A stretch of DNA of 64,000 nt, taken from NCBI RefSeq assembly GCF_033304595.1, contig NZ_CP116341.1, positions 1,841,001 through 1,905,000 of the forward strand, read 5' to 3'. A program made the position numbers and the translations under genes. The DNA is from Sporosarcina jeotgali (GTDB lineage Bacteria > Bacillota > Bacilli > Bacillales_A > Planococcaceae). Position 1 is the stretch's first letter. Each line of letters opens with the position of its first letter. Below, in pieces: positions 24,597 through 30,435 of this stretch. The notes beneath the pieces were generated by a model. The model did no database searches and was not told where the DNA came from. It saw only the letters and a program-made list of their open reading frames with translations.

Positions 24597-26483
24597 TCAC
24601 TCCGGTTGTAGTACTCTATTCGGTACATTTCGCTTCCTTTCCTTCTTCGTATACCGCATTAATCGAACTGCGTTGAGGATGACGAGCAATACACTCACTT
24701 CGTGGATGAGCATGCCTGACGCAAGAAATACTTTTCCGAAAAGGACACCCGCAAGTAGGATGAACACCGTTGTGACTGCGAAATAAGTGTTTTGTTTCAT
24801 ATTTAGGATGGTTACTTTCGCTAATGCATGTGCGTGAGAGAACTGATCGAGTCGGTCTGCCATTAGGACGACGTCAGCTGTTTCCATGGAGATGTCGGTT
24901 CCGCCTTCTCCCATCGCAAGCCCGATGTCAGCAGTTGCGATAGCCGGTGCGTCGTTTATGCCGTCACCTGCCATTGCGACGACATGGCCTTCTGCTTGTA
25001 ACTGCTTAATCCACGCTACTTTGTCTTCCGGTAATAACTCTGCGTGAACGTGATCGAGTCCGAGCTGTTTGCCAACCAAATCTGCTGTATGCCGATTGTC
25101 CCCCGTTAGCATGATGATTTGTTTGACTCCATTGGCTCTCAACTCTTGAATTGCTTCCTTTGCTTCCGGACGAATCTGATCTGCAATGGAGATGATACCG
25201 TGCACGACTCCGTCAATGGCTGCGAAGATGGCTGTACTTCCTGCTTTTTCTCGTTGAACTGCGTACGATTCCATGGATTCTTCTATGACAATGTCTTTAG
25301 CCGCCATCAGTTTGCGATTGCCGACTGTAAGGGTTTTGTTTTCAACTGTCACGCGAACACCGTTGCCTTCGATGATTTCAGCGTCTTTGGGTTGATTGAC
25401 CAAAGTGATACCTCGCTTTTGAGCTTCTTTCACAATCGTTTGCCCGAGATGGTGTTCAGATATCACTTCGGCTTCTGCGACAAGACGCAGTAATTCGTTT
25501 TCATCGCCTGAAATAGTGTGGATGTCCATCACTTCAGGACGTCCTTTTGTGAGTGTTCCTGTTTTATCGAACACAACGGTGTCGACTTTAGCTAGATTCT
25601 CCATGATTTCGCCCCCTTTGACGAGCACACCATGTCGAGCTCCGTTCCCAATGCCAGCGACGATGGATACAGGAGCCGAGATGACGAGTGCACCTGGACA
25701 GGCGACGACTAAGAACGTCAGTGTCATTTCAATATTTCGTGTAAAGATGTAAACAAGTATGGATAATAGAACGATGGCTGGGGTGTACACTGTTGCAAAA
25801 CGATCGAGAAACTTTTGTGTTTTCGATTTCGATTCTTGTGCTTCTTCAACAAGTTCAATGATCCGTGCGAAAGTAGTGTCGTCTCCCACTCGGTCTGCGA
25901 TGACTTCAATGAACCCATTATCGACGATACTTCCACTAAATACCCGGTCATCAATCGCTTTACGCGCTGGCACAGATTCTCCAGTAATTGCTGATTCATT
26001 CACTGTGGCGTTCCCGGTGACGATGACGCCATCCGTTGCGACTTTTTCTCCCGAGCGGATGATTACGCGGTCACCTTCTAGGACGTCATCGATTGAAATC
26101 GTCATTGTTTCGCCTTCACGGATGACCGTTGCGTCACTAGGCGCCATGTCAATGAGTGATTTGAGCGACGAGCGCGTTTTTTCGAGTGTTCGAACTTCGA
26201 GAAAGGCACCGAACAGAAAGAGAAATGTAACCGCCGCGGATTCAACGTATTCTCCAATGAATAAGGCACCGATAACTGCGATGGTTACAAGCAGTTCAAT
26301 ACTGAACGCTTTCATACGCAGAGCTTGAATTGCTTTCCATGTGATTGGTGTTCCTGCGATTGCTGTCGCTGTAATCAGCGTCCATTGTTTCGCGTCTGAC
26401 AAGCCTGTAAAATGAAGTACTATCGCCAAGACGAGCAGTATCGCTGATACAGCAGTGATTTGGGATGTTCTTTTTGCATTCAT
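24597..26483 (-). CDS. Heavy-metal P1B-type ATPase with CPG motif
   Basis: 628 residues from ATG 26483 (AAAGGAGG upstream). About eight membrane helices; actuator TGES (167-170); membrane metal site C262-P-G264 (VVACPGALVI); phosphorylated Asp306 in DKTGTL; HP-type motif SEHHLG; GDGINDAP hinge. No N-terminal metal-binding domain: this is supplied by the separate HMA protein encoded just upstream. CPG instead of CPC leaves one thiolate in the transport site, so metal specificity (Zn, Cd, Co or Mn) cannot be assumed from the CadA/ZntA family. Central gene of a three-gene operon. Confidence 0.9.
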   Translation of the reverse strand: MNAKRTSQITAVSAILLVLAIVLHFTGLSDAKQWTLITATAIAGTPITWKAIQALRMKAFSIELLVTIAVIGALFIGEYVESAAVTFLFLFGAFLEVRTLEKTRSSLKSLIDMAPSDATVIREGETMTISIDDVLEGDRVIIRSGEKVATDGVIVTGNATVNESAITGESVPARKAIDDRVFSGSIVDNGFIEVIADRVGDDTTFARIIELVEEAQESKSKTQKFLDRFATVYTPAIVLLSILVYIFTRNIEMTLTFLVVACPGALVISAPVSIVAGIGNGARHGVLVKGGEIMENLAKVDTVVFDKTGTLTKGRPEVMDIHTISGDENELLRLVAEAEVISEHHLGQTIVKEAQKRGITLVNQPKDAEIIEGNGVRVTVENKTLTVGNRKLMAAKDIVIEESMESYAVQREKAGSTAIFAAIDGVVHGIISIADQIRPEAKEAIQELRANGVKQIIMLTGDNRHTADLVGKQLGLDHVHAELLPEDKVAWIKQLQAEGHVVAMAGDGINDAPAIATADIGLAMGEGGTDISMETADVVLMADRLDQFSHAHALAKVTILNMKQNTYFAVTTVFILLAGVLFGKVFLASGMLIHEVSVLLVILNAVRLMRYTKKERKRNVPNRVLQPE

Positions 26484-26511
26484 GATTCTACCTCCTTTCC
26501 TGAGTAGTCGT

Positions 26512-26733
26512 TCAAGATACTTTTTGCGTGACAACTGGATAACCTAGCTTTGAAATCGTTTCTTGGATTTCATCCGCAGTGACTTGGTCTTCATTAAACT
26601 GAGCACGCACTTTACTCGAGTTAAATAGGACGTTCACTTCCCGGATCCCTTCCATTTTTCCTAATGCACGTTCAATCTTCTTAATACACGACGGGCAGCT
26701 AAGCGGTTCTAACGTAAATACACCTTTTCTCAT
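26512..26733 (-). CDS. HMA-domain metal chaperone (CPSC)
   Basis: 73 residues, a single ferredoxin-like heavy-metal-associated domain. The metal-binding motif is CPSC (Cys13 and Cys16 in LEPLSCPSCIKKIE), in place of the common M-x-C-x-x-C of copper chaperones. It probably hands the metal to the ATPase encoded 28 bp downstream, which lacks its own HMA domain. Start: ATG 26742 abuts AGGAGG, whereas ATG 26733 has a 9-nt spacing and is preferred. First gene of the operon. Confidence 0.85.
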   Translation of the reverse strand: MRKGVFTLEPLSCPSCIKKIERALGKMEGIREVNVLFNSSKVRAQFNEDQVTADEIQETISKLGYPVVTQKVS

Positions 26734-26842
26734 GATTTTCATCCTCCTATGTGTTGGTTACTGATCTTCTACCTGCAGTATAAGAGGGTTTCTGATTTGA
26801 AACCTTGACGCTCCTCAAGATTCAAGGTTGGATATACATTTT

Positions 26843-29577: not shown

Positions 29578-30186
29578 TTATAATCGATAAGTTGGGATAA
29601 GTCCTTTTTTGTAAATGAAAGCCAACATATTCAAAAACGGCTTTGGGATTTTCTTTACAAAGTAACGTTTCCTATAGAGTTGGAGATGCGCTTTTTTAAG
29701 GTTGGACCATTGTTTGCAGTCTTTCGTTTGTCGATAACGCGCAACATCAATAAGTTTTATCTCCCCATTAGAAGCGATCAAGAGATTACGTAAATGAATA
29801 TCGGAGGGATTTAATCCCAAATCTGAAGCCAATGATAGAGCGTCATCGATTTCTTGGATATGTCCTGATGTAATCACTGTTCCATTTGTCAGGCACTCAA
29901 AAAGCGTATCCCCTTCAATGTAATCCATTACGATATAATTCCGCCCCTGTTCATAGACAGAGGGAAACTGTGTAATATCTTTCAGGACGTGATAAATTTC
30001 GGTTTCTTCTTTCGCAATATGTTCAAAACCAGGAAAGAACACTTTAATGGCTTTGGTCGTTGACTCGATTCTAAATACAAATGCACTTCTCCCGGTTCCG
30101 ATAAGTGTTAACGATTTGTCGCAGCTCTTTACACGATTATTGTTTTTCACAATGATTGAATTGGCAAGTTCTAGATAAGTGCTCAA
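29578..30186 (-). CDS. Protein-kinase-like protein (YrzF-type) under a Mn riboswitch
   Basis: 202 residues, a compact eukaryotic-like kinase fold. Gly-rich loop IGTGRSAFVF (29-38), Lys48 in AIKVF, hinge VMDYIEGDTLFECL, catalytic loop reduced to SDIHLRNLL (an H-x-R-N form in place of H-R-D-x-x-x-x-N) and LIDVARY where DFG is expected. The short catalytic loop leaves it open whether it is an active kinase. Starts at TTG 30186, 7 nt after GGAGG. The transcript leader (30400-30187) contains a yybP-ykoY riboswitch and two terminators, so expression should respond to Mn2+. Confidence 0.75.
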   Translation of the reverse strand: MSTYLELANSIIVKNNNRVKSCDKSLTLIGTGRSAFVFRIESTTKAIKVFFPGFEHIAKEETEIYHVLKDITQFPSVYEQGRNYIVMDYIEGDTLFECLTNGTVITSGHIQEIDDALSLASDLGLNPSDIHLRNLLIASNGEIKLIDVARYRQTKDCKQWSNLKKAHLQLYRKRYFVKKIPKPFLNMLAFIYKKGLIPTYRL

Positions 30187-30219
30187 ATGATAGCCTCCAA
30201 TAAAAGTTTAAAATAAAAA

Positions 30220-30256
30220 AGAGACCTTATAACCACTATCTGGTCATAAGGTCTCT
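30220..30256 (-). terminator. Second terminator in the riboswitch leader
   Basis: 15-16 bp stem AGAGACCTTATAACCA / TGGTCATAAGGTCTCT (30220-30256), followed on the minus strand by TTTTTTATTTT. Its RNA begins UUAGAGACCUUAU, an imperfect copy of the riboswitch 3' end, 25 nt before the kinase ribosome binding site. Confidence 0.9.
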
Positions 30257-30259
30257 AAC

Positions 30260-30379
30260 AAAATAAAAGACCTCACCAAATAAATGGTAAGGTCTCGCTA
30301 ACAACGATTGTTGCCAGTAAAGCCGAGGAATTATCTCCTGTATTGACGGCTTGACTGTAGCAGCTACTCCCCTTAACGG
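30260..30379 (-). ncRNA. yybP-ykoY manganese riboswitch with terminator expression platform
   Basis: Read on the minus strand, the leader has AAGGGGAGUAGC (complement of 30365-30376), AGCCGUCAAUACAGG, CCUCGGCUUUACUGG and GUUAGCGAGACCUUACC (ending at 30286): the conserved order of the yybP-ykoY family. P1 pairs AAGG with CCUU. The same GACCUUACCA can instead pair with UGGUGAGGUC to form a terminator followed by UUUUAUUUU (down to 30260). Mn2+ binding, which stabilises P1, would thus favour read-through (ON switch, as known for this family). Downstream gene: the kinase-like protein. Confidence 0.85.
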
Positions 30380-30406
30380 AAGTTCACGGTATTAAATTAT
30401 AGACTA

Positions 30407-30435
30407 ACTATAAGTTTAACGATTTTAGATGTCAA
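30407..30435 (-). promoter_or_regulatory. Sigma-A promoter of the riboswitch leader
   Basis: Minus-strand TTGACA (complement of 30430-30435), 17-bp spacer, TATAGT (complement of 30407-30412). Places the transcript start near 30400, about 20 nt before the riboswitch. Confidence 0.85.

Follow-up and report, generated by a model that had tools for sequence, protein, structure and literature searches.

A compact yybP-ykoY-type riboswitch with tandem terminators in front of a predicted minimal kinase gene in Sporosarcina and other Bacilli

Mn2+ riboswitches are known for controlling exporters, TerC proteins and P-type ATPases. In the characterised class the metal is held by the L1 and L3 motifs, as the L. 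lactis structure has made clear. When Mn2+ is present in L. lactis, the ligand stabilises helix P1.1, the 3' segment of which otherwise joins a terminator (PMC11087558). In B. subtilis, TerC-family genes that lie behind Mn switches are represented by meeY/ykoY (PMC10550928). A linkage between yybP-ykoY and a kinase is not reported in the literature we examined; an earlier mention is possible, as the founding papers (Dambach 2015, Price 2015) were not covered.

Here we describe such a linkage in a window of 64,000 nucleotides from Sporosarcina jeotgali, whose genome is 3.2 Mb in size and of Sporosarcina type. The leader in this window shares with RF00080 and the L. lactis yoaB switch (PMC11087558) the order and sequence of the L1, L3 and P1 motifs, a P1.1 switch helix that overlaps the first terminator, and the association with TerC genes. 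It differs from them in lacking P2, in carrying two tandem terminators, in having a kinase as its target and in scoring below the gathering cut-off. With meeY/ykoY it shares the riboswitch class, and in two other genomes (L097, L118) the kinase and TerC are even found in one operon. Unlike that of meeY/ykoY, the leader in the window serves a soluble kinase, while TerC is encoded elsewhere in the same genome (L001). The regulator thus belongs to a known class, of which its compact form, its two terminators in a row and its kinase target make it a variant. Our preferred reading, which we hold with considerable confidence, is that a compact, P2-less, Mn2+-sensing yybP-ykoY element acts as an ON switch for a competent minimal kinase, and that this kinase belongs recurrently to the Mn regulon of Bacilli.

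Along the minus strand a promoter is followed by the aptamer, two tandem terminators and the kinase gene. The sigma-A-type promoter (TTGACA, 17 nt, TATAGT; 30407-30435) was called near-perfect in an earlier, sequence-only reading of this DNA, and it does match the consensus at 11 of 12 positions. From its position, transcription is expected to start near 30400. The same TTGACA/TATAGT promoter is seen in four relatives (L004, L005, L083, L084). The conserved yybP-ykoY blocks named in the sequence-only reading (GGGGAGUAGC, GCCGUCAAUAC, CGGCUUUACUGG, GCGAGACCUU) occur in the order it gave, from 30377 to 30286 on the minus strand, and the compact aptamer formed there (30286-30377) consists of P1.1, P1.2, P3 with L3, and P4. 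Where a single terminator had been assumed ahead of the kinase, we found two. Terminator 1 (30267-30296, minus strand) has 12 pairs and a U-rich tail, and its sequence is almost invariant within the genus; terminator 2 (30220-30256, minus strand) is a perfect 16-pair hairpin with a run of U. A ribosome binding site, GGAGG (30194-30198, minus strand), lies 7 nt upstream of a TTG start codon and is conserved among relatives. The open reading frame that begins there (29578-30186, minus strand) encodes the minimal kinase of 202 amino acids, in which all catalytic residues are conserved, and it is indeed the first gene behind the switch. The predicted fold of the leader has an energy of −67.2 kcal/mol, compared to −36.6 kcal/mol for shuffled sequences (z = −7.7), and none of 200 shuffles was as good.

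Assigning the aptamer to its class is less simple than these motifs may suggest. The RF00080 search proposed earlier as a check formally fails, as the leader, at 10.6 bits (E=1), falls well short of the gathering score of 45. This does not refute the assignment. The P2-bearing switch before TerC in the same genome (L001) scores 27.8 bits and is likewise below the gathering score, and five further TerC- or kinase-linked copies from other genomes range from 20.3 to 35.1 bits where the model detects them. Because TerC-linked copies also stay below the gathering score, the cut-off is insensitive here, and the conclusion that there is no riboswitch because RF00080 is under its cut-off can be ruled out. 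Matches of the leader to microRNA, snoRNA and SSRC10 families were rejected, as all of them were under their cut-offs.

We therefore rely on the structure of the aptamer and on the genes it is found with. A hand-drawn structure (P1.1, P1.2, P3 with the L3 internal loop, and P4) is paired in 98.1% of the cells of an alignment of 44 compact aptamers. Two-sided changes are found in 15 of the 26 aptamer pairs, and none of 500 shuffles did as well. The L1 (GGGGAGUAGC / GCGAGACC) and L3 (CGUCAAUAC) motifs follow each other in the expected order, in columns that are invariant or nearly so across the 44 sequences. Helices P1.1, P3 and P4 of the yybP-ykoY class are present in the window; the P2 hairpin is absent from this aptamer and from the other 43 that were aligned, and is present in L001 and L132. 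Without P2 the canonical four-way junction becomes a three-way junction. TerC genes of other families likewise follow a compact aptamer (L056-L061), and hence we regard this form as a structural variant of a class for which P2 is not essential. Fold energy, conservation and covariation together exclude a chance origin of the leader. The conserved motifs, the covarying helices and the overlap between P1.1 and the terminator bear out the proposed membership in the yybP-ykoY class. By analogy with that family, Mn2+ is very likely the ligand, and the compact aptamer would bind it as its characterised relatives do.

Run over the whole genome, a covariance model (R1) built from the 44 aligned compact aptamers gives 100.3 bits for the copy in the window and 41.4 bits for the one before TerC. 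The window copy was among the training sequences, and its 100.3 bits are not independent evidence; the independent support for the aptamer is the covariation and the TerC contexts. No third switch was found in the genome with R1, the next match being at chance level (15.6 bits, E=2). Among 250 sampled Bacilli genomes, 174 have R1 matches, either to compact or to full yybP-ykoY elements. As the gathering score of RF00080 misses the copies we tested, Mn switches, and with them the Mn regulon of Bacilli, are probably under-annotated.

How the leader could work follows from the overlap of its parts. The 3' strand of P1.1, CCUUA within GCGAGACCUUACC, doubles as the 5' arm of terminator 1, and GACCUUA is common to both structures. 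By analogy with L. lactis, we infer transcriptional ON control by Mn2+. Without Mn2+ the 3' strand of P1.1 (GACCUUA) would enter terminator 1 and transcription would stop. With Mn2+, docking of L1 and L3 would hold P1.1 (UAAGG/CCUUA) together and terminator 1 could not form. The polymerase would then continue, pass terminator 2 with some efficiency and reach the kinase gene.

To reach the kinase gene, the polymerase would have to get past terminator 2. The hairpin is kept in 33 relatives with two-sided changes, a count that leans towards the hairpin, as the pairs were chosen by folding. Both terminators are present in 46 of the 52 compact switches examined. Passage could be helped if the freed 3' arm of terminator 1 paired with the 5' arm of terminator 2, and L055, L118 and L120 have a strong pairing of this kind. 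For the window the antiterminator pairing amounts to −12.9 kcal/mol versus −24.7 kcal/mol for terminator 2. Terminator 2 is stronger than any antiterminator we could draw, and therefore expression of the kinase might be low even in the presence of Mn2+. In roughly half of the sequences the two arms pair better than shuffled ones do. Outside Sporosarcina matched arms beat permuted ones (p 0.0016); within the Sporosarcina type they are not significantly above permuted arms (p 0.11).

The protein encoded behind this leader is kinase-like by several measures, and no named family in Pfam or NCBIfam passes its cut-off for it. All matches from these two collections are weak and of kinase type; that to PF00069 in Pfam has 26.9 bits (E=3.8e-6), below the gathering cut-off of 31.7. 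An AlphaFold2 model (pLDDT 92.5, pTM 0.86) retrieves RIO2 with Foldseek (E 1.8e-7), and also ArK1, PknB and OspG. Like RIO, the RNA kinase ArK1, OspG and kinases of the Bud32/RfaY type, the protein combines a kinase N-lobe with a short C-lobe. It has in common with these minimal kinases the conserved Lys, Glu, Asp, Asn and Asp and a D-x-H-x-x-N loop; its structural hits among RIO, ArK1 and OspG are 16-24% identical to it. YrzF of B. subtilis is, we assume, a possible relative.

The sequence-only reading had described the catalytic loop as altered, which might suggest an inactive protein. The loop sequence is PSDIHLRN, with His in place of the Lys of Hanks kinases, and the Hanks motifs are not matched (PSD for HRD, DVA for DFG). 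Yet across 30 homologues, the most distant of them about 31% identical, there is no variation in K48, E61, the catalytic aspartate D129, N134 and the metal-binding aspartate D147, nor in G30 and G32 of the glycine-rich loop. The pattern is atypical but not that of a pseudokinase, and judging by its residues the kinase is probably catalytically competent.

Within the genus, leader and kinase travel together. A full-length kinase is present in 26 of 37 sampled genomes, 23 of which also have a strong match to the leader; none of the 11 genomes without a full-length kinase has one. The pair is also found in named genomes of Sporosarcina, Viridibacillus and Paenisporosarcina. Since what follows the kinase differs between genomes of the genus, leader and kinase form the conserved unit. 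Two genomes of the genus that have neither the full gene nor the leader still carry short pieces of the kinase that contain an in-frame stop (G009:C67:109702-109827, G002:C8:114769-114867).

We rejected the idea of a conserved operon continuing past the kinase, as the HNH gene found there in the window is in that place only in the near-identical L082. This HNH endonuclease gene (PF13391; 28483-29403, minus strand) begins 174 nt after the kinase, with no terminator-like site between the two. Further along this strand, 3 kb past the kinase, the window also contains a P-type ATPase of heavy-metal type and an HMA-like open reading frame of 76 aa (24597-26742, minus strand). They are parted from the kinase by a symporter-like open reading frame and the HNH gene, and no link to the switch was seen.

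Looking further afield, related genomes show the kinase behind the switch again, either directly or together with TerC, DUF6376 and PAP2 genes. In Mesobacillus foraminis (L097) the switch is followed by a small open reading frame, a Spo0M-like gene, a DUF1232-like gene, TerC and the kinase (neighbour proteins were assigned for representatives, and the DUF1232 label by eye). In L118 the order is switch, TerC, DUF6376 lipoprotein, PAP2 phosphatase and kinase. Shorter versions have only DUF6376 (L113, L115, L117, L121), only PAP2 (L122) or only a small open reading frame (L098, L119, L129) between switch and kinase. The possibility raised earlier, that another metal gene always separates leader and kinase, does not hold, as many homologues have nothing in between. 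Five genomes of one other family (L132, L145-L148) have a second kinase subfamily, 35-37% identical, immediately downstream of a canonical switch with P2, and in L150 a member of this subfamily follows a compact switch and a PAP2 gene.

In the class sample, 11 of 24 close orthologues have a switch on the same strand no more than 3 kb upstream, where about 0.2% would be expected for each. The corresponding tail probability of 3e-23 ignores relatedness, and the positives alone span six families of the sample. The linkage is frequent but not universal, and the kinase can do without the switch: orthologues in two large genera of one family (f16), and also in L114, L123, L126 and L127, have no switch nearby, and some leaders have decayed in front of an intact kinase (L079, L092/L105, L140, L110). 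In the decayed leaders the 5' half of the aptamer is lost or matches weakly, and the terminators are partly kept. In L145 (3953-5695) and in L147 (minus strand) a P2-bearing Mn switch, the kinase and an EcsC-like protein are set in an operon-like array, and in L125 (5314-5408) an Mn switch lies about 0.9 kb from the kinase on the opposite strand.

One could argue that the kinase owes its switch to an accident. According to the sequence-only reading, the original exporter may have been lost and its switch captured by the kinase; more generally, the leader could be the relic of a lost TerC or DUF6376 gene, behind which the kinase happens to come first without any role in the Mn2+ response. The genes that stand between switch and kinase in other families, and the decayed leaders of some relatives with a kinase, are what such a history would leave behind. 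But the window's genome retains a separate TerC gene with a switch of its own (L001), and in L097 and L118 kinase and TerC share a switch-led operon. Leader and kinase stay together in 23 of 26 genus genomes despite changing neighbours, the aptamer helices are under selection as judged from their covariation, and the same pairing is found in two kinase subfamilies (the second in L132, L145-L148 and L150) and with two aptamer subtypes. Because the pairing recurs, a one-off capture is unlikely and recurrent membership in the Mn regulon fits better; we consider a kinase without a role in the Mn2+ response quite unlikely. A loss of upstream genes from a longer operon is likely in the history of the Sporosarcina lineage, and the kinase would then have been in the Mn regulon already.

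The two remaining alternatives accept the leader as a switch and question either its output or its input. Terminator 2 could stop nearly all transcripts at about 30215, so that the product would be a short leader RNA lengthened by Mn2+, and the kinase, hardly a target at all, would be made from leaky readthrough. A perfect 16-pair hairpin with a U tail, two-sided changes in the genus and the presence of both terminators in most compact switches examined would all be expected in that case. The same tandem terminators, though, precede multi-gene TerC operons (L097, L118, L056) whose genes must be expressed, and the 34 nt from terminator 2 to the start codon are too short for a separate promoter. 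The pairing between the arms of the two terminators, above shuffles in about half of the sequences and significant outside Sporosarcina if not in the Sporosarcina type, also speaks for regulated passage, and we think it unlikely that the kinase is bypassed in this way. As for the input, the P2-less aptamer could have lost or changed its ligand and respond to another ion or signal, given that it lacks one complete helix of its characterised relatives and that the RF00080 score is poor. This seems very unlikely to us, since the metal-holding L1 and L3 motifs vary little or not at all and TerC genes in several families lie behind the compact form.

If our preferred reading of a Mn2+-responsive ON switch for the kinase is correct, then a kinase recurring behind Mn switches points to a branch of Mn2+ homeostasis that has not been described. 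Its repeated pairing with the switch in many families of Bacilli suggests that the kinase is a regular, overlooked part of the bacterial manganese response. Its companions in the Mn regulon of Bacilli are TerC metal chaperones, the DUF6376 lipoprotein and the PAP2 phosphatase. As a recurrent member of this regulon, the kinase may phosphorylate a target that helps the cell to cope with high Mn2+ or to use it. A more specific proposal, to which we give somewhat less than even chances, is that high Mn2+ induces the predicted minimal kinase, which would phosphorylate a protein, an RNA or an envelope precursor and in this way tune either the efflux of Mn2+ or those exported, Mn2+-dependent enzymes that TerC and PAP2 serve. 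Such a riboswitch-to-kinase module would convert Mn2+ status into phosphorylation across Bacilli. The DUF6376 lipoprotein (PF19903) is itself found behind a compact switch in five genomes (L113, L115, L117, L118, L121); the family also occurs in B. subtilis, where its member is possibly YybP itself.
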